From Bacillota bacterium (GTDB lineage Bacteria; Bacillota_I; Bacilli_A; Izemoplasmatales; Hujiaoplasmataceae), in NCBI GenBank assembly GCA_029559915.1, contig JAKPZU010000350.1, forward strand, positions 1-39,499: DNA of 39,499 nucleotides, read 5' to 3'. Positions 2,986 through 32,008 of this stretch are shown in pieces; position 1 is the stretch's first letter; each line of letters begins with the position of its first letter. The position numbers and the translations under genes were made by a program. The notes beneath the pieces are model-generated. The model did no database searches. It was not told where the DNA came from and saw only the letters and a list, made by a program, of their open reading frames with translations.

Positions 2986-3900
2986 ATGCTGGAATCATAT
3001 TTGAAAGAATATCTTTATTATTTAAAAGTTACCAAGAATTTAGCTAAAAATACCATTCTGTCATATGAAAGAGATTTGTCGGATTATCTTGATTTTATCA
3101 AGCGAAACTATGATATCAAAGACTATAATAACATTTCTGACGAGCATTTGAGGAACTACCTCAAGAGTTTGGCGCGTCGAGAAATCAAAGCTACATCCAT
3201 TACCAGAAAGATTAGTTCCATTCATAATTTTCATAAGTATTTGACAACCGAGGATTTGGTTGACAAAGACGTAAGTGAAAGAATCAAAAAACCAAAAACT
3301 AAAAAAACTTTACCAACGGTCTTGAATATTCAAGAGATAAACGCTATTATAAATCTTACCTATAAAAATGAAGAACCATTGGAAATAAGAAACAGAGCTT
3401 TGGTTGAGTTAGCTTATGGATCGGGCCTTAGAGTTAGTGAATTGCTGGAACTAAAGATTAGTGATTTACATCTCAACAAGGGTTTGGTGACGGTTGTTGG
3501 CAAAGGAAATAAAGAAAGAATCATACCCGTAAGCGAAGCTTGTGAGCAAGCTCTAAGGGATTATATTGTTAAAGCCAGACTTAAACTGAATCCCAAATCG
3601 CAAAACACGTTATTTGTCAATAAATTCGGCAACAAGTTAAGCCGAGTCGGCTTTTATAAAATTGTACAGACTTTGGCGGAGGAAGCGCATATCAATAGAA
3701 AGATATCGCCTCATACCTTCCGTCACACTTTCGCAACTCATTTATTAGAGAATGGTGCTAATCTAAGGTCTGTACAAGAACTTCTGGGACATGAAGACAT
3801 TATGACAACCGAACATTATACCCATGTCTCCAAGTCCCATTTGAAAGATGTTTATAATGAAGCGCATCCCCGCGCTGATGGAAAAGAGGAAAAATCATGA
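2986..3900 (+). CDS. xerD: Tyrosine recombinase XerD/XerC type
   Basis: Phage-integrase fold: ALVELAYGSGLRVSELLELK, HTFRHTFATHLLENGANLRSVQELLGHEDIMTTEHYTHV; next to deoB as in Bacillus ripX-drm. Confidence 0.92.
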   Translation: MLESYLKEYLYYLKVTKNLAKNTILSYERDLSDYLDFIKRNYDIKDYNNISDEHLRNYLKSLARREIKATSITRKISSIHNFHKYLTTEDLVDKDVSERIKKPKTKKTLPTVLNIQEINAIINLTYKNEEPLEIRNRALVELAYGSGLRVSELLELKISDLHLNKGLVTVVGKGNKERIIPVSEACEQALRDYIVKARLKLNPKSQNTLFVNKFGNKLSRVGFYKIVQTLAEEAHINRKISPHTFRHTFATHLLENGANLRSVQELLGHEDIMTTEHYTHVSKSHLKDVYNEAHPRADGKEEKS

Positions 3901-5075
3901 AATTTAAACGTGTAATTTTAATTGTAATTGATTCAGTGGGAGTCGGAGAAATGCCTGACGCCGATGTTTTTGGCGATAAAGGAGCTAATACAATCGGCAA
4001 TTTGGCAAAAGCGGCCGGCGGTATCAACTTACCGGTTTTAAAAACTTTTGGCTATGGGAATTTAACAGAAATTTTAGGGGTTGAACCTGTCGTTTATCCG
4101 CGCGCAAATACAACTAAAATGGCTGAATTATCCAATGGTAAAGATACGATGACAGGGCATTGGGAGTTGATGGGAATTAAGACCGAAGTGCCGTTCAAAA
4201 CCTTTACCGATACCGGTTTTCCTCAAGATTTGATTGAGGAAATCGAAAAGATTACCGGTAGAAAAGTTGTTGGTAACAAGTCAGCTTCCGGTACGGATAT
4301 TTTGGTGGAATTGGGTGAACACCAAATGAAGACCGGAGATTTGATTGTTTATACTAGCGCGGACAGCGTCTTGCAGATAGCAGCTCATGAGGAAATCATT
4401 CCTTTACAGGAATTGTACGATATTTGCGAAAAGGTTAGAAAATTGACCTTGGTAGACAAATGGCGAGTGGGAAGAATTATTGCCAGACCTTATCTAGGAA
4501 ATCCAAAGGATGGTTTCAAAAGAACGACAAATCGCCATGATTACGCTTTGAGTCCAACCTCAAAAACGGTATTGAATATCTTGGAAGAATCAAAGTTTGA
4601 CGTTATTTCCGTAGGAAAAATACGCGACATATTCAATGGTTCCGGCATAACTGAACATTATGGTATAAAGTCAAATCATGATGGAATGAATCGAGTAATC
4701 GATCTGACAAAAAAAGATTTTACCGGTCTATGCTTTGCCAATCTGGTTGATTTTGACGCTCTATACGGTCATCGCCGCGATGCAATGGGATATAAGTTGG
4801 CTATGGAAGAGTTTGACAGCGATTTAGGACGATTACTAAAATATTTGAAAGATGACGATTTATTGATGATTACAGCTGATCATGGTAATGATCCAACATT
4901 CAAAGGCACCGATCACACCAGAGAGTATGTGCCGCTATTTATCTATGCCAGAAACTATAACGGCAAGTTCTTGCCTGAAAGAGCTACGTTCGCTGATGTT
5001 GGCACAACGATTGCCGATAACTTCAATCTTCCGGGAACTTCAATCGGCTGCAGTGTTTTAAGAATTCTTGAATAA
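3897..5075 (+). CDS. deoB: Phosphopentomutase
   Basis: VILIVIDSVGVGEMPDA, DTMTGHWELMG, ADHGNDPTFKGTDHTREYVPLF; 4-nt overlap with xerD. Confidence 0.96.
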   Translation: MKFKRVILIVIDSVGVGEMPDADVFGDKGANTIGNLAKAAGGINLPVLKTFGYGNLTEILGVEPVVYPRANTTKMAELSNGKDTMTGHWELMGIKTEVPFKTFTDTGFPQDLIEEIEKITGRKVVGNKSASGTDILVELGEHQMKTGDLIVYTSADSVLQIAAHEEIIPLQELYDICEKVRKLTLVDKWRVGRIIARPYLGNPKDGFKRTTNRHDYALSPTSKTVLNILEESKFDVISVGKIRDIFNGSGITEHYGIKSNHDGMNRVIDLTKKDFTGLCFANLVDFDALYGHRRDAMGYKLAMEEFDSDLGRLLKYLKDDDLLMITADHGNDPTFKGTDHTREYVPLFIYARNYNGKFLPERATFADVGTTIADNFNLPGTSIGCSVLRILE

Positions 5076-5082
5076 TAAATTA

Positions 5083-5110
5083 AAGGGGCTGATTATTCAG
5101 CCCCTTATTT
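5083..5110. terminator. Bidirectional terminator between convergent deoB and coiled-coil gene
   Basis: GGGGCTGA-ttat-TCAGCCCC with A/T tracts on both sides. Confidence 0.85.
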
Positions 5111-8038
5111 GTTGATAAGCAATGGATTACGTCTAATTTTTCTTGCTAGTCTCTTTAGTTCAATCTTTTCTTTCTTTTGAATCTCCTTATCGGTTTTCTT
5201 GACAATTAGCCTGATGCGACGATTGGTTTTGGTCAATTTTACGTAAGGTTTATAAGTGGAAAGGACCTTGTCAAAAGATTGGGAGAGATCCAGGATGTAT
5301 TTTTTACTTTCGGTCAAGGTTAAGTTGTATTCTTTTGTCAAATTGTCTACTTCGGCTTCATAGAAAGATCTTTTATCATTTTGTTGTTGCTGATACCTGG
5401 ATTCAAGCATTTGCAATTCCAATTGTTTTTGATAAATTTCGGCTTCCTCTTTTTTTATTAAGTCTTCCTTAATTCTTTTGGCTTCCTCGATGATAATATC
5501 TCTTTCAACATTAAGTTGCTCAACATTTTTTTGATATTCATTATCGATGTAATGGATTTCCATTTGGTATTCTTTGACTATCTTGTCTTTTTCATTTTGA
5601 ATTTCAATAATGTAGTTTGAAAGTACATTTTGGTCTAATTCTGGCTGTTCACGATAATAAAGTTTTAAATATTCATCCAACAAGTCCTTAGTTTTGTTGT
5701 CAAGTTCAGCTTCAGCCAATTTTAGTTTAAATTCATACCTTTTCTTCATTCGTTCCAAAGTATCAAAGAAAGTTGGTTCCAGTGGGTTCACTTTGTTGAC
5801 TAGGTAAACCTTAAGGTATTCATATCGTTCTTTGGCGTTATTATAGATGCCCTGCATTTCTTCAATGGTTTCATCTCTCAAAGCCATGGCTTCCTCAAGC
5901 GCTTCTTCTAAATGGTCGTCGAGATTTTTTAATCTAATCTTGGCATTGTTTATCACTGAATTTTCTTTGAGGGTCATTTCTGAATTGTCAATCAATTCAG
6001 CATATTGATCCTTAACTTTTTTGAAATCTTTTTCCAAAGACTTAAGATCTTTTTGATCAGGATTTTGCGAGAGCAGAAGATGATGATGGGTATAGATTTT
6101 TGCCTGATACTCATCAATGATATCACGTTTGCGTTTCTTGGATTGTGATTCTTGGTTGATGATAATGTCGTTGAAATATTCTCTTTCTTCGTCAACTGCG
6201 GTAATTATTGCTTGAACTCTTAACTTGAACTCGTCATTGGCAAGTTTAATTTGCTCTTCCGCAAAACGCATTTGATTTTCATAGGTTTTCAAAACAAATT
6301 CATTATGGATTTTAGTCTCATCTTCAACGCGATTGGATTGCATAACCAAAAATCTTTTCTCGTTCTCAAACATGGTGCGAAAATGAATTGCGGTGATGTC
6401 ATATTCTTTTAGAGCCAACTTGATGTCTGATAAAGCTTCGACAAGTTCAATTTCGTGGTCTTCCTTGCTACGAATGAACTTAATCATCATGTCAGTTATA
6501 AAGTTCAAATACTTGCGATTTATACCATTGATCTTTACATCGTGTTTCAGATAAGAGTTTATCGCCTTGTCCAATTTGAAAATATTTTGTTTCTCAATCT
6601 TAATATGGTTGGCTGAAAGTGATGTGTCGGCTTTTTTTTCCACAAAGAAGTTTTGAACATCGAGGATATTGCTGATGAGATCGATATCCTGAAGATATAT
6701 TTGCCTTTCGACTTCATATATCAACTTAGCTTCAATCTCGTTGATTTGTTGGTTTAATTTCAAAGTTTTAATATCATAATTTACATTGATTTTGTGTTCT
6801 TTGTTTATCTTCAAGGTAGATAGGTAATTTACTTCATCCTTAATGATTTTTGTGGCTTTATCTCCAATTATTTGGGCTAGGAAAGGGTCAACCATAAGAA
6901 TGTCGAGATAAAGTTTGTAGTATTTTTCCATTTGGAAAATTAGTTTTCTCGACTCTTTTTGATATTCGAAGAAAATTATTTTTTTGTCTTCCAAAATCGA
7001 TTTGGTCATTTTTCTTGCTTTTTTTTCAGTTTTAGCGAGGATATCCTTATACTTGATGGCAATATTATAAGTTCTGATAAGTTGACCTAACGACGCCAAG
7101 TTCTCGTTTTTAGCCCACACTATCTGTTCTTTGAGATTTAAAAGACTCTCTTCGACATGACTGAAGAAATTAGGGTCATTAATAATCATGTTGCCTTTGC
7201 GTTGCAAAAGTTTATCCAATACCTTTTGATAAAGGCTTTGATATTCTTCGTGTAATATTGATTTAATCTTCGCTTCTTGGGTCAATAGATGCTTTTTAAA
7301 CAATTTGAATTGTTTTAACTTGTCGGAAATCAAACTTTTCATTTCTTGAGAATTCAAATTTGTTTCAGCAGTGAAGGTCATCTGATTATCTAGATATTCA
7401 GCGGTCTCTTGTTGGAAAAAATCATAAATTTTGTTCAATTGTACATTCTTGTTCTGCATCAATTGGGCAATGCGATCGTTCATTTCAAAGATTTCATTGT
7501 CAAGCGTCGTAAAAAAATCCATCACTTCAGACTCATATTTTTGAATGATTTTTTCAAAAGTTTTATTCTTTTCTGTCAGGAATTGATAAAACTCATCCAA
7601 ATCGATGATATCTTTGGCATAATACATTTTGAGTTCATTGAAGAAGTCAAATGATGATTGAAGCAAGGCTTTATTCAAATAATCGAAATTCATCAATTTA
7701 TCTTGGGCATTCTTGTATTCGAATTCCAAAATATTTTGATTTTGATTTTGAATCTGTTTTTCAGTATTCATGATGATATTCTGACGATCAATAATAACTG
7801 TTTCATTATGATAGAAGATGCTATGTTTCAGTTCCTTGACTTTATCTTTTAATTCGGTTAATGACTGACGACTTTCTTGTAAATTGTTCAAGGTCACTTG
7901 ATGATGATTTTTTGCACGATGGACAATTGATTCAGCGAAACGTTCAAAAAGCGATAACTCTTCTTTCAAAGCGTTATCAATCTTTTCCTTGTAATCATCG
8001 AAATTGTCGTAATTCACTTGAATCTTATCGTCACTCAT
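5105..8038 (-). CDS. 977-aa predicted long coiled-coil protein with strongly basic C-terminus, unknown function
   Basis: Single long ORF rich in E/K/Q/L/I/N; no Cys seen, one Trp, very few Gly/Pro; no Walker A; C-terminus TKTNRRIRLIVKKTDKEIQKKEKIELKRLARKIRRNPLLINK. SD AGGTGA overlaps the stop of the upstream gene. Confidence 0.85.
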   Translation of the reverse strand: MSDDKIQVNYDNFDDYKEKIDNALKEELSLFERFAESIVHRAKNHHQVTLNNLQESRQSLTELKDKVKELKHSIFYHNETVIIDRQNIIMNTEKQIQNQNQNILEFEYKNAQDKLMNFDYLNKALLQSSFDFFNELKMYYAKDIIDLDEFYQFLTEKNKTFEKIIQKYESEVMDFFTTLDNEIFEMNDRIAQLMQNKNVQLNKIYDFFQQETAEYLDNQMTFTAETNLNSQEMKSLISDKLKQFKLFKKHLLTQEAKIKSILHEEYQSLYQKVLDKLLQRKGNMIINDPNFFSHVEESLLNLKEQIVWAKNENLASLGQLIRTYNIAIKYKDILAKTEKKARKMTKSILEDKKIIFFEYQKESRKLIFQMEKYYKLYLDILMVDPFLAQIIGDKATKIIKDEVNYLSTLKINKEHKINVNYDIKTLKLNQQINEIEAKLIYEVERQIYLQDIDLISNILDVQNFFVEKKADTSLSANHIKIEKQNIFKLDKAINSYLKHDVKINGINRKYLNFITDMMIKFIRSKEDHEIELVEALSDIKLALKEYDITAIHFRTMFENEKRFLVMQSNRVEDETKIHNEFVLKTYENQMRFAEEQIKLANDEFKLRVQAIITAVDEEREYFNDIIINQESQSKKRKRDIIDEYQAKIYTHHHLLLSQNPDQKDLKSLEKDFKKVKDQYAELIDNSEMTLKENSVINNAKIRLKNLDDHLEEALEEAMALRDETIEEMQGIYNNAKERYEYLKVYLVNKVNPLEPTFFDTLERMKKRYEFKLKLAEAELDNKTKDLLDEYLKLYYREQPELDQNVLSNYIIEIQNEKDKIVKEYQMEIHYIDNEYQKNVEQLNVERDIIIEEAKRIKEDLIKKEEAEIYQKQLELQMLESRYQQQQNDKRSFYEAEVDNLTKEYNLTLTESKKYILDLSQSFDKVLSTYKPYVKLTKTNRRIRLIVKKTDKEIQKKEKIELKRLARKIRRNPLLINK

Positions 8039-8047
8039 TCATTTCAC

Positions 8048-11000
8048 CTAAGCATTGATGATTCGATCTTGTTTTTCCTTGGATTTTTGTTTTTCGTCAT
8101 TGATTATTTCTCTGGATTCAGCGCTTTTCAACATCGTTTCTTTAAAGTTGAGTTGGAAGATTGTCAATAAATCCATATGATAAGTATTCAATTTTTCGAA
8201 AGACTTATTGATTCTTGAGTCATTGTCGATTAAAAGTCGATTGGCAAACTGTTTGTTTATGTAATCCTGATATGTATCGTAGTAACTTTCATTAATCAAG
8301 GTGTATTGTTGTAAAAATTCGTTTTCAAGTTCTTGAATTTCCTTGTATAGTTTTGCATAGTCTTCAGGCAAACGATTTTGAACGGCGATTATTTCTTCGA
8401 GAAGGCCAGGCTTTGACATTAATTTATTGCCTTCAATTTCAGAGAATTTTTTAAGAAGTTCGTCCTGTTTTTCAAGATATAATTGTTCTTTTTGAGTATC
8501 CATAGAGGTCAACAATTCAACTTTTTCCTGAGGAAGTTGATTAATTTTTTCTTCAAGCAACTTGATGGTTTTAGAGATGTCTTCTTCCCGCTTGAAGTTG
8601 AGTTCATAAAGGTATCTAACTTCTTCATCATATGCATCTGTCATATTCGCTCTAAATTTGGCCAACATATTGACGTAACGCTTGTGTTGATTGGTAAAAA
8701 TTACTCTTTCTTTAGCAATTTCTTCATCTATCAATTTTAGCATGTGCAGCAATTGACGGTCATTTTTTATGATGATATCGGTAATTTCTTTTTCCAAGAA
8801 AGCCAAGAATTCAGTTGATTGTTCTTTTTCAAGCAAATATTGATCGTTTATCGCTTTAACTCGCCTTTTGAATGTATTATTAATTTTATTGGCATTATCA
8901 AGCAATAAATCTATTTGTTTTTTTCTTTTGGTCTTATATTTTATTGCTTGAAAAGCCAGTTCATCATATTCTTGGTTAATTATCCCAATGTTTTCTTCAG
9001 TTTGAATTCTGGCCTGAGCGATAAAGTCAAGATCGTTTTCGGCGATTTTATCGCGAATATAGAAAATGTTCTTGGTAATCTCTGTCATGTAGTTCTCAAG
9101 AATCTTAACTGCAGAAATGAAGTATTTTTGCAGACCATGATAGAAAACTTTAGTTTTAGTCTTGTTGTTAAATTGGTCAAAAATACTTACAACCAAGAGA
9201 TTAAAATCAGTCAAGGCTTTTTCGTAATTAAACGTCAAGTCGTTGATTAAGTCTGGTATTTGATATTTGTATATTTGGTTCAGGGTTTTGTTATAAATAT
9301 AAGTTATCAAAGCTGATATTTCGCTAAAATAACCTCTAGATTTGATGATTGACGATTCATTGTTCAAGAAGTTTTCTTCATTGAATATTAAAAGCTTTTT
9401 GAGCTTCAAGATATATTCTTCAGCCAAAGCATTTAGGCTATCGCTCAAGTCGTTATGTTCTCGATGATACAGACTAGCAGCTTTCATGCAAGCGGAAATC
9501 TTTTTGTCCAGCTGTCTCTTCAATTGTTTTTGCACTGCCAAGCGATTCTTTTCAACAATAGTCAAATAAGTCCAATTATTATTGCTTTTGGATAAGTATT
9601 GTTTAAAGGCGGCAGTAGTAGTATTGTTCGTGTTAATCAATTTCTGCATATGGTGGATAAAATCAATTACAGAATCGGAACTGATTTTATCTTTCTTTAG
9701 CTCTTTGTTTCTAATATCGAAAAACTTTTTGGCATAAGCGAAATTAGCACTTTTAACTTGTTTAATTATTTCCAATTTTGCGATTTTGTACATCAAGTAA
9801 GACATTTGATTTTGTTGCTTGAAGAAGGCTTCTTGCTGGGAAATCAGTTTATCAAAACCAAGTTTATGAATGCTTTCTTCCTCTTTGCTTAGATTCAACA
9901 TGTACTGGAGGTGTTCAGCGCCGAGTTCTTTATTCTTGTTAAGTTCAAGAACATCGTTGTTTATTTTTAGAAGACCCTCTTTGTATCTAGTTTTAATTTG
10001 AATAGACTCGATATTTTTATTATGCTGATACGTGGCGAAGAATTCGTCATTTTCCAAGGAAGCCAAATACTTCTGGTAGTCTCCCAAGATTTCCAATGCG
10101 TCTATTTTTTTTCTAATTTTCGCTACTTCCAGTCTATTGCTAGATTCTAGAGTAACGATTTTTAGAGAAACATCGTCTATTTTTGCGATTAAACGGGTCA
10201 GATTGCCCGTGACTTCGTTGATGCGAACCATCATATTGATTTTGTAGTCTTCATAAGCTTTGGAAGTGGTGGTGACGAAATTGTTTTTTGTATCCAAAAG
10301 TTCTTGATGGAAGTCAATAAGACCGTTAAGCAAACGGTCGAGTTCATCAAAGCCTTGGTTGAGATAAAAGGCGAAATTGGAATATGTATCAATTGAATTC
10401 TGTAAAAAAGTTATCGGTACGGAATATGCAAGCTTGATTTCTTCACTTCTTTTAAAGGAATCGATCTTGATTTTTTTGATTTCCTGTTGATATTTTCTGA
10501 TAGTGAAATTTGTCAGAGTTGTATTTCTTTGTAGTAAATATTCAGCTTTTTTTTCGATTATTTGTTTTTGGAGAATATATTTCTTTAAGTTTGCATCATC
10601 ACGTTCATCATGAGCTTTAATCATTAATTGGTAAACTCGGGTAAGAGAAGATTCTAAATCCGCCTTTACTTTTGCTTCGAAGTTTATTTTTTGGGTATTT
10701 AACTCTCGGATTTGAACAACATATTTTTTGATCATCTGTTGATTTAATTCCGAATGAGGTTGTTGCTTGTTCTTAGAAATCTTTTTGATATTTTCTCTCT
10801 GAAGTTCAAGATTATTGGAGTTTTCCTTGAATAAACTAATAATGCCAATTTGAGTTCCACGGAGGTGTTCCAATGATTTTAAAACAATCTGGTTTAGTTC
10901 CTTGGAGTCGCTGATATTAGCTTCCTTAAGAGAGTCATTAAGTGAATCAAGCGCATTTTTAGCCTTTTCCATGGTGTTGAGCAAATCATTGGCCAAGAAG

Positions 11001-11503
11001 TTGTTAACATCTTGATAGTACTCTTTCATGCTATCATTCTTTTTTGTTTCTTGTTCAATGAATTGATAGTGAACATCGACTGATTCATCAATTTCTTTTT
11101 CACTTTCACGAACCAATTCCAAATATTTATTAAGAGCTTCCTGTTTTCTTTCTTCAAATTGATTTAAGACATCCTGATAAAGTTTATTTTCTTCGTCAAG
11201 CAGATTTTGAAGGTCTTTATTGTTAAGAGAGAATTCATTCGCTAGTAATTCAAAACGTTCGCGAAAGTCTTCATCGATTATAGCGATTCGTTTTTCGTGT
11301 TCATCTTCTTCAAAAAGATATTTGTTGAGATGTAAATTTTGGTCAGCATCATATTCGATTTCAATCTGTTTCAGTAAGTTTTGATAGGTTATTTTTTCAT
11401 TATTAAAAGCCCGTTTCAACTCATGTAAACGGGTTTGATATTCTGTTTCAAATTGGGTGAAACTAGTGAAGTAATTCTGTAAGATATCGCGTTTTATTGC
11501 CAT
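8048..11503 (-). CDS. 1151-aa predicted long coiled-coil protein, unknown function
   Basis: Single long ORF, heptad-like charged/hydrophobic pattern throughout, one Cys, one Trp, no catalytic motif or TM segment recognised; GGAGTG SD before the ATG. Confidence 0.85.
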   Translation of the reverse strand: MAIKRDILQNYFTSFTQFETEYQTRLHELKRAFNNEKITYQNLLKQIEIEYDADQNLHLNKYLFEEDEHEKRIAIIDEDFRERFELLANEFSLNNKDLQNLLDEENKLYQDVLNQFEERKQEALNKYLELVRESEKEIDESVDVHYQFIEQETKKNDSMKEYYQDVNNFLANDLLNTMEKAKNALDSLNDSLKEANISDSKELNQIVLKSLEHLRGTQIGIISLFKENSNNLELQRENIKKISKNKQQPHSELNQQMIKKYVVQIRELNTQKINFEAKVKADLESSLTRVYQLMIKAHDERDDANLKKYILQKQIIEKKAEYLLQRNTTLTNFTIRKYQQEIKKIKIDSFKRSEEIKLAYSVPITFLQNSIDTYSNFAFYLNQGFDELDRLLNGLIDFHQELLDTKNNFVTTTSKAYEDYKINMMVRINEVTGNLTRLIAKIDDVSLKIVTLESSNRLEVAKIRKKIDALEILGDYQKYLASLENDEFFATYQHNKNIESIQIKTRYKEGLLKINNDVLELNKNKELGAEHLQYMLNLSKEEESIHKLGFDKLISQQEAFFKQQNQMSYLMYKIAKLEIIKQVKSANFAYAKKFFDIRNKELKKDKISSDSVIDFIHHMQKLINTNNTTTAAFKQYLSKSNNNWTYLTIVEKNRLAVQKQLKRQLDKKISACMKAASLYHREHNDLSDSLNALAEEYILKLKKLLIFNEENFLNNESSIIKSRGYFSEISALITYIYNKTLNQIYKYQIPDLINDLTFNYEKALTDFNLLVVSIFDQFNNKTKTKVFYHGLQKYFISAVKILENYMTEITKNIFYIRDKIAENDLDFIAQARIQTEENIGIINQEYDELAFQAIKYKTKRKKQIDLLLDNANKINNTFKRRVKAINDQYLLEKEQSTEFLAFLEKEITDIIIKNDRQLLHMLKLIDEEIAKERVIFTNQHKRYVNMLAKFRANMTDAYDEEVRYLYELNFKREEDISKTIKLLEEKINQLPQEKVELLTSMDTQKEQLYLEKQDELLKKFSEIEGNKLMSKPGLLEEIIAVQNRLPEDYAKLYKEIQELENEFLQQYTLINESYYDTYQDYINKQFANRLLIDNDSRINKSFEKLNTYHMDLLTIFQLNFKETMLKSAESREIINDEKQKSKEKQDRIINA

Positions 11504-11533: not shown

Positions 11534-11562
11534 ATTATATTATAATAGACGTCTTTATTCAA
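11534..11562 (-). promoter_or_regulatory. Sigma-A-like promoter of the coiled-coil operon
   Basis: On the minus strand TTGAAT - 17 nt - TATAAT. Confidence 0.6.
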
Positions 11563-11628: not shown

Positions 11629-12633
11629 ATGGACGAAAGAATTATTAGCAATAATCTATTGATAGATGATGAAGTAGATGTAACGCTAAGACCTAAAAGT
11701 TTTGGTGAATACATTGGCCAAAAAGACGTCAAGGAAATGGTTGAAATAGCTGTAAAAGCGGCTAAAATGCGCAACGAATCACTGGATCACGTTCTTTTGT
11801 ACGGACCTCCTGGATTGGGAAAAACCACTTTAGCTCAAGTGATTGCCAATGAATTGGGTGTAAATATAAAATCTTTGAGTGGACCGACCATTGAACGCAC
11901 TGGCGATCTTGCAGCGATATTGACTTCTTTGGAACCTGGGGATGTCTTATTTATCGATGAAATTCACCGCTTACCAAAAATTGTCGAAGAAATACTTTAC
12001 TCTTCTATGGAGGATTACGTGATTGACATCGTTGTTGGAAAAGATTCTGGCGCAAAGTCCATAAGGGTTGATTTGGCGCCATTTACACTGATTGGAGCGA
12101 CCACCAGATTCGGCGATTTGACCGGACCTCTTCGTGATCGTTTTGGCATTGTTCATAAGTTGGAGTTCTATTCTGACGCCGAACTGGAAATAATTTGCCA
12201 ACGCACTGCTAAAATATATGATTGTCAAACCGAGCCACAGGCAATTGTTGAACTAGCCAAAAGAAGTCGTGGGACACCAAGAATAGTAAATCGTTTGTTT
12301 AGGAGAGTCAGGGATTTTGCAGATATATTAAGTGAGGGCTTAATCACACTTGAAGTGACTAAAACCGCCTTGCAAAAACTGAAAATTGATGAGTTGGGAT
12401 TAGATAATAAGGACCGAGAATATTTGTTGGGCATTATAGAAAAATATCACGGCGGTCCAGTGGGATTGGATACCATTGCGACATCAATAAGTGAAGATGC
12501 CGGAACTTTGGAAGATGTCTATGAACCGTTTTTAATTCAAAAAGGTTTTATCAGTCGGACACCTCGAGGACGAGTTGTTACGGAAAAAGCATATCGTCAC
12601 CTAAAAAAATCTTATCAAGGAAGTTTGTTTTGA
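11629..12633 (+). CDS. ruvB: Holliday junction branch migration DNA helicase RuvB
   Basis: [83 protein letters not shown]. Confidence 0.97.
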
Positions 12634-22834: not shown

Positions 22835-22849
22835 TGCTAAAGATAATCG

Positions 22850-23082
22850 ATGAATAGGATAAGATTATGAATATTTACCTTTATAGAGAACTGGCGTAGG
22901 GTGGAAGCCAGTAAGGAAACTTCATTATTATCACCTATGAGAGAACTGTCGATAATGTAGACAGTTACGTAATAAGGTAGGCGTTAACTACTTTTAAAGA
23001 AGAGCCGGCATTTTTTTGTCGGAACTAAGGTGGTACCGCGGAAATTTCGTCCTTAATCATGAGATTAAGGATTTTGTTCTTT
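22850..23082 (+). ncRNA. T-box leader (Ile, specifier ATC) of ileS with terminator
   Basis: Stem I base ATAGG/CCTAT (22854-22858 / 22934-22938), specifier ATC at 22930-22932 followed by A, apical GGTGGAAGCC, T-box AAGGTGGTACCGCG at 23027-23040, terminator TCCTTAATC-atga-GATTAAGGA-TTTTGTTCTTT. Confidence 0.93.
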
Positions 23083-31102: not shown

Positions 31103-31823
31103 TAAAATTTATGATGATTTGGCCCAGCGTTTTGATCAAATGGTCAAAGACGATATGGAAAATTTCCGCTTTCCGTATTCTGAATACAATTTATTGCACG
31201 AGATTATCGCTGAATACATCAGCGATCGCTTGAACGGAAAACCAGTAAAGATTCTAGATATTGGCATTGGTACAGCCTCACTATATGAAAGAATTATACC
31301 CGAAGGCATTGATTTAACGGGCATCGACAACTCGGAGCCAATGTTGGAAATTGCCAGATTAAGGGTACCTGAGGCGAGGCTCATCAACCATAATATAAAA
31401 AAAGGTTTGCCCGAAGACATAAAAGACGAAACTTTTGATTTTATCGTTGTTTCTTATCTGTTCATGCATTTCGATTTTGAATTCGTCATTTATTTCATCG
31501 AACTATTCAGACAGTATTTGGCACCTTTTGGAAAACTTTTGATTGGCGATATTTTATTCTTCAACGAAGACAACAAGTTGCGTTTTTTAAAGGAAAATCC
31601 CGATGTCGTAATCAACGACTTGAATTTGCACGTCTATCAAGACGTACTGGAACGCATCGATGATATCTATGATTTGAGCTATATGGAGATCAATTCTTAT
31701 ACCGGTTTGATAATTGTCGAGAAAATGTACCAAAACTCTTTACAATATGATGAAACTTTGGTAAAATACAATGCAAATACAGAGAAGTGGAAGAGTACTC
31801 AGCCAGAGAAAAAAAGCGAGTAA
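31095..31823 (+). CDS. Class I SAM-dependent methyltransferase
   Basis: Motif I ILDIGIGTASLYERI, TGIDNSEPMLEIAR, FDFIVVSYLFMHF. Confidence 0.85.
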   Translation: MSNKIYDDLAQRFDQMVKDDMENFRFPYSEYNLLHEIIAEYISDRLNGKPVKILDIGIGTASLYERIIPEGIDLTGIDNSEPMLEIARLRVPEARLINHNIKKGLPEDIKDETFDFIVVSYLFMHFDFEFVIYFIELFRQYLAPFGKLLIGDILFFNEDNKLRFLKENPDVVINDLNLHVYQDVLERIDDIYDLSYMEINSYTGLIIVEKMYQNSLQYDETLVKYNANTEKWKSTQPEKKSE

Positions 31824-32008
31824 ACAGTTGGTGTGAAGTTTACCTCATAGGCGGTTTTTTAGAGGAAGGTAGCCATGGAGTTGGTTAGATGAAGTAGTAG
31901 TAGTTTAACCCGTAAGACTTGCGTTAAAGGTCTTCAAGAGCCAGATTTATCTGGAATTAAGGTGGTACCACGGATTGAATTCGTCCTTTTTTTAAGGACG
32001 ATTTTTTA
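31820..32008 (+). ncRNA. T-box leader (probable Val) of nudix-valS with terminator; non-canonical stem I
   Basis: T-box TTAAGGTGGTACCACGG (around 31957-31973), terminator TCGTCCTT-ttttt-AAGGACGA-TTTTTT (31981-32007), AAGAC/GGTCTT stem before it; GTA triplets at 31894-31902 next to GTTTAAC that can pair with GTAAAC at 31820. Confidence 0.82.

Follow-up and report, generated by a model that had tools for sequence, protein, structure and literature searches.

Paired long helical rod proteins encoded beside ruvB in Izemoplasmatales and their possible role as an internal scaffold of wall-less cells

The window analyzed here is a stretch of 39,499 nucleotides (nt) from a Bacillota bacterium of the order Izemoplasmatales (assembly GCA_029559915.1, contig JAKPZU010000350.1), in which two adjacent genes, here called A and B, encode long proteins whose models are helical throughout. 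Comparison of genomes indicates that the A-B pair is an order-wide ancestral feature rather than a local oddity, and that it is nearly universal in the genomes examined. Cultured members of the order are coccoid and lack a cell wall (PMC8397711; PMC10470597). We propose, with about an even chance of being right, that A and B have a dedicated structural role, forming an internal scaffold in these wall-less cells. The two genes and their junction are as follows:

8048 to 11503, minus strand: gene A, 1151-residue all-helical rod, transcribed first (open reading frame call; all-helix AlphaFold2 model)
5105 to 8038, minus strand: gene B, 977-residue all-helical rod, second gene (open reading frame call; all-helix AlphaFold2 model)
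8039 to 8052, minus strand: A-B junction, 9 nt, with the AGGTGA Shine-Dalgarno sequence of B overlapping the TAG stop codon of A

The preliminary description of this DNA, made from its letters alone, had the two genes co-oriented and 9 nt apart, with the Shine-Dalgarno sequence of the second lying over the stop codon of the first. Both the open reading frames (ORFs) and the junction sequence, in which this overlap can be read directly (...GCTTAGGTGAAATGAATG), agree, and the overlap together with the tight gap suggests that the two genes are probably translationally coupled. Residue counts match the reported depletion of Gly, Pro, Trp, and Cys: A has 14, 6, 1, and 1 of these and B has 5, 8, 1, and 0, respectively, which is less than 2% of either protein as compared with 11% of the neighboring proteins. 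The AlphaFold2 models of both were all helix (mean predicted local distance difference test score 78-79), in keeping with the claim that the proteins are rods throughout. No Walker A motif ([AG]x4GK[ST]) was found in the window's A or B, and in the alignments of A, B, and the one-gene rods (a further group of proteins described below) the pattern occurred as a single isolated chance match. Neither a transmembrane helix nor a signal peptide was found in A or B, whose highest 19-residue hydropathy values were 0.83 and 1.07. Motif, hydropathy, and profile checks thus all support the earlier view that the pair carries no Walker A, transmembrane, or enzyme motif and does not belong with the SMC, MukB, or Rad50 ATPases.

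The hydrophobic residues of these rods form a stripe with a period of 3.62 residues, where a heptad would give 3.50. In the window proteins, power at 3.62 reached 7.5 for A, where shuffles gave at most 2.7, and 4.6 for B, where they gave at most 3.2; power at 3.50 fell inside the shuffle range for both. The same code returned 3.50-3.52 for SMC arms, and globular neighbors gave no comparable peak. Families are labeled f1 (the window's own), f2 and f3 (the same order), and f5 to f23 (the same class). Normalized power at 3.62 climbed up to windows of 200-300 residues in A and more slowly in f1 B, and because it rises with window length, the stripe keeps its phase over very long helices; in f2 B the periodicity was less regular. 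The undistorted alpha helix completes a turn every 3.63 residues (PMC9858780), so a stripe at 3.62 implies essentially no supercoil. Without a supercoil, packing of more than two helices is favored, except where the core is rich in alanine (PMC9858780), and helical wheels of A and B show a core of Ile, Leu, Val, Phe, and Met plus Tyr with little Ala. Together, the stripe and the low-Ala core predict a straight bundle of at least three helices, within or between chains. We therefore reject heptad coiled coils for A and B, and the coiled-coil nature first ascribed to them did not hold up in this respect. The straight stripe also raised the idea of an amphipathic helix lying on the membrane, which is disfavored, as the helical wheel has neither an interfacial Lys/Arg flank nor an acidic pole.

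Homologues of B were present in 33 of the 34 f1 genomes and homologues of A in 32. The genome with neither (G027) also had no full match to RuvB, and the region is probably missing from its assembly. In another genome (G007; L081, 6259-9652), A contained several frameshifts in a stretch of 22% guanine plus cytosine (GC) in the draft while B was intact, so that the broken A is either sequencing error or decay. The named relatives are metagenome-assembled genomes (MAGs) of Candidatus Izemoplasmatales and of unclassified Bacilli/Tenericutes, the closest being an Izemoplasmatales MAG with 95% identity in B. Outside f1, plain searches of f2 and f3 gave weak matches or none for B and none for A. Profile-profile comparison linked B of f1 to f2 at an expectation (E) value of 6e-38 and f1 plus f2 to f3 at 6e-15, with reversed-profile nulls of 0.01 or worse, and linked A of f1 to f2 at 3.5e-11 as compared with nulls of 1e-3. 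For the f3 A, the link to the others is confined to a match over the initial ~160 residues (2e-6 against a null of 0.02), together with its position and length. With the B profile, nothing convincing was found outside the order and the one-gene rod families among 398 genomes of the class.

The two rods occupy a fixed slot between housekeeping genes, marked in the window by the following neighbors:

11629 to 12633, plus strand: ruvB (334-residue RuvB), divergent neighbor of A, with homologues equally placed throughout the order; marker of the slot
3897 to 5075, plus strand: deoB (phosphopentomutase), convergent neighbor of B at the far end of the slot, its order kept in most f1 and f2 loci

Loci from each of the three families show A and then B read away from an operon of ruvB and queA. 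In f1 and f2 the convergent neighbor is deoB; the divergent operon of f3 is longer and begins with a gene of 161-178 residues, probably ruvA. The conserved co-occurrence that the preliminary description had named as its own test was found at 38 loci with both genes, at which the gap between A and B had a median of 12 nt and fell within -30 to +20 nt at 35 of them. One exception was G065, where the slot holds a single 702-residue A-like ORF (L134:7679-9787) with a weak match to f2 A (E 5e-11), a possible reduction of the pair.

Sequence evolution at the locus is permissive but constrained in length. When the window was compared with its nearest relative, the ratio of nonsynonymous to synonymous substitution (dN/dS) was 0.059 for A and 0.042 for B, as against 0.016-0.090 for neighboring housekeeping genes, and both proteins are under purifying selection. 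Within the window's own family, identity of A and B drops to 27-46% while that of RuvB is 81-87%, and between families B retains 14-18%; overall, the rods have diverged to ~15-30% identity. Median lengths are nonetheless close, at 1151.5 residues in f1 and 1194 in f2 for A and at 977 and 973 for B; fixed length with permissive sequence is what would be expected of a structural rod. Open, length-conserved homologues across the order and the low dN/dS indicate that A and B are more than chance frames. The best-conserved stretches, around residues 300-500 of A (f1 conservation profile) and 550-600 of B (f1 and f2), are candidate contact sites. The window's B ends in a basic tail of net charge +12 over its last 40 residues, and B of f1 and f2, two of the three families, has such a tail (+5 to +16 over 40 residues); A has none.

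Sequence searches of Pfam, NCBIfam, PHROGs, PADLOC, and PDB returned no credible match for A or B, which leaves in place the earlier statement that they belong to no known family. Single-member matches at 1e-2 to 5e-4 were dismissed as helical low-complexity sequence. As far as these searches reach, A, B, and the one-gene rods are absent from every family database consulted.

These one-gene rods occur in the sister families f12, f16, and f22, where one gene divergent from ruvA-ruvB (L182, L188, L193-L209, L211, and L213) encodes a protein mostly of 1070-1240 residues that is equally poor in Gly, Pro, Trp, and Cys. Profile comparison connects these proteins among themselves (E from 7e-41 to 4e-12, with nulls of 6e-5 or worse); they have the 3.62 period of A and basic tails like that of B, and they form a second undescribed protein family. 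Nearness to the order in a ruvB plus queA tree, in which deep branches are weakly supported, and the partial mur genes of f22 suggest that these families are probably Acholeplasmatales; partial mur retention in f22 fits Anaeroplasmataceae as described (PMC10868615). A shares with the one-gene rods the slot divergent from ruvAB, a length of ~1200 residues, and the 3.62 period. Comparison of all A with the one-gene rods gave E 2.5e-11 against a reversed null of 1e-11 to 1e-10 (f2 A with f12 rods, 9e-8 against 3e-5), so that common descent by sequence does not rise clearly above the null and we claim only position, length, and period. A and B themselves aligned over 801 collinear columns in hhalign (E 2e-7; reversed null 3e-4 to 6e-4), but we do not claim that they are ancient paralogues, because composition yields E values of similar size when A is compared with the one-gene rods. 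Two f18 genomes were seen to carry shorter rods beside ruvB, of 428 and 609 residues with a period of 3.63 (L190:11312-12598 and L220:6650-8479). ORFs of 639 residues flagged by the profiles in f9 were not rods low in Gly and Pro.

Two further elements flank the operon:

11534 to 11562, minus strand: candidate promoter of sigma-A type (TTGAAT-N17-TATAAT), upstream of A and within the interval that separates A from the divergent ruvB
5083 to 5106, no strand assigned: bidirectional terminator hairpin with a 10-bp stem and a T tail on both strands, between the convergent B and deoB

The promoter attributed to the operon in the preliminary description is at the right place, but it is a consensus match only (10 of 12 positions), and promoter-like sites in the region (20 found, 25.8 expected from shuffles) are as a class not above chance. 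An antisense ORF of 111 residues lies inside A at 8915-9250 on the plus strand and is probably a chance frame. Elsewhere in the window there are two T-box leaders, at 22841-23057 and 31773-31991 (123 and 116 bits).

We envision that A and B would be very long, straight alpha-helical rods with a hydrophobic stripe running parallel to the helix axis, which would pack as multi-helix bundles rather than as twisted two-stranded coiled coils. Co-produced from one operon, the two would probably assemble with each other through the conserved patches into a system of filaments, mesh, or struts. The basic tail of B would probably tether this scaffold to the nucleoid and its DNA or to acidic membrane, and the scaffold may hold the shape of the cell or of the nucleoid.

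In keeping with this proposal, MurG was not found in the sampled genomes of f1, f2, f3, f12, and f16. FtsZ was found in 85 of 90 genomes of the order (G000-G089). MreB was counted only below 1e-80, matches near 1e-21 to 1e-23 being taken as Hsp70-type and ignored; by this measure several f2 genomes have it, as does one contig of the window's assembly, and it is absent elsewhere in the order sample. Because FtsZ is kept, and MreB in some, the A-B pair is no simple stand-in for a missing tubulin or actin cytoskeleton. The scaffold role that was first suggested remains reasonable for a wall-less group. The MreB gene in the window's assembly (L215, G000:C387:2586-3560) is a true one that was not seen in the other sampled f1 genomes. 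At 2.49 Mb with 5.5% contamination, this draft is unusually large (its relatives span 0.7-2.4 Mb), and the phrase "reduced genome" used at the outset fits only loosely.

Several observations weigh against a scaffold of wall-less cells. Some f2 genomes keep MreB, as noted, and f22, which has a one-gene rod, keeps a divergent MurG. The profiles used found no relative of the rods in the wall-less, Mycoplasmatales-like families f6 and f17, and A and B are therefore not required for wall-less life in general. Finally, the predicted TM-scores of the AlphaFold2 models (0.32-0.43) are so low that their fold topology is not trustworthy.

The alternative that we take most seriously concerns the chromosome and was not considered in the preliminary description; it arises from an apparent loss of condensin. 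SMC was found in 1 of the 90 order genomes, and this sole match (L214, G076:C29:1-4576) lies on a 4.6-kb contig of 44% GC, as compared with 56% in its genus, that is probably an assembly contaminant. Long helical proteins could crowd SMC out of the first-look filter, and the kleisin ScpA (PF02616) was used as an independent marker. It was found in none of 34 order genomes and in none of the tested genomes of f12, f16, f22, f18, f7, f9, and f20, while f6, f13, f14, f15, f17, f21, and nine control organisms were positive. SMC-ScpAB thus appears from these profiles to have been lost across Izemoplasmatales and the other families negative for ScpA, MukB-type condensins not having been searched for, and this loss is not stated in the literature searched; a review of phytoplasmas describes their partitioning repertoire as sparse and regards the annotation of SMC as doubtful (PMC3322544). 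A and B might then organize or tether the chromosome without ATP hydrolysis, with the B tail binding DNA. The presence of ScpA in fast-evolving f6 and f17, the basic tails of B (f1 and f2) and the one-gene rods, the adjoining recombination operon, and the sparse repertoire of phytoplasmas speak for such a nucleoid skeleton. On the other hand, the correlation is phylogenetically confounded within a single clade; f7, f9, and f20 also have no ScpA, with no rod at the slot in f7 and f9 (that of f20 was not looked at); proteins with no ATPase could not extrude loops; and adjacency to ruvB could be genomic inertia. We regard a nucleoid skeleton as possible but improbable. A more specific history, in which an ATPase-free rod skeleton replaced SMC-ScpAB at its loss in Izemoplasmatales/Acholeplasmatales and the one-gene rod either turned into the A-B pair or was joined by it, is doubtful.

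The remaining explanations fare less well. A scaffold for division or polarity, positioning FtsZ or the segregation machinery in the manner of Scy, FilP, or DivIVA, would suit the wide retention of FtsZ and the likeness of A in size and non-heptad period to Scy of Streptomyces, a protein of 1326 residues that is mostly a non-canonical coil in which 51 residues make 14 turns (3.64), interacts with ParA, and assembles (PMC3718342). However, the N-terminal motif RGYDxxEVD common to DivIVA, GpsB, FilP, and Scy (PMC9858780) occurs in no A, B, or one-gene rod sequence, and the core is not alanine-rich; we consider this role unlikely, and the resemblance would be a functional analogy at most. An accessory of RuvAB at Holliday junctions, sharing a divergent control region, would account for the position beside ruvB or ruvAB kept in three families of the order and in sister families, but the divergent operon of f1 begins with ruvB-queA rather than ruvA, recombination has no need of rods encoded by kilobases of DNA, and many lineages have ruvAB without them, making this quite improbable. 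SMC-like proteins that have lost their ATPase heads would be of similar length (SMC is ~1180 residues), and the top Foldseek matches of both models in PDB were SMC, MukB, and cohesin. These matches had TM-scores of 0.06-0.18 and reflect generic long helices; no SMC profile matched A or B; the sole TIGR02168 match located was to the arm region of one one-gene rod protein, far below the cut-off; and there is neither Walker A nor hinge, with a period of 3.62 instead of 3.50. We disfavor this origin as very improbable. Long helical proteins of variable sequence might also bring to mind a phage or mobile-element protein, such as a tape measure, or a defense system, but neither PHROGs nor PADLOC gave a match, a pattern search with B in 2.9 million viral contigs found none, and vertical synteny among housekeeping genes refutes the idea, which we give almost no credence.

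A scaffold of the wall-less cell remains the reading that we prefer. A and B seem to represent protein families not described before, near-universal in an order of wall-less bacteria, and both the keeping of form without a wall and chromosome order without condensin could be addressed at this one conserved locus. If the nucleoid skeleton were true, it would represent organization of a bacterial chromosome by neither condensin nor motor. A straight stripe of 3.62 over hundreds of residues is, moreover, an unusual rod design, and searching for it could reveal proteins missed by heptad predictors and family databases.

Compared with known systems, the A-B pair resembles the arms of SMC, MukB, and Rad50 in length and long helices but differs in having no Walker A motif, head, or hinge, in departing from the heptad of SMC arms, and in residing in genomes without SMC-ScpAB. 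Scy and FilP are, like A and B, long, all-helical, non-heptad (hendecad-type) proteins with no enzyme domain, and Scy is near A in size; A and B differ in their missing RGYDxxEVD, a period of 3.62 rather than 3.64, a bulky core with Tyr rather than an Ala-rich one, the two-gene operon, and the phylum. Crescentin and other bacterial coiled-coil-rich filament proteins have, like A and B, a putative filament-forming role and a coil-like composition, but A and B have at least about twice their length, are non-heptad, and have no sequence match to them. HMW2-type cytadherence proteins of Mycoplasma provide an example of a giant helical scaffold in a wall-less bacterium, with no relation detectable in Pfam and in another lineage and locus. 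Long helical scaffold proteins are a known kind in bacteria; what is new, as far as our tools tell, is an operon of two rods, their straight-stripe design, and the conservation of the locus.

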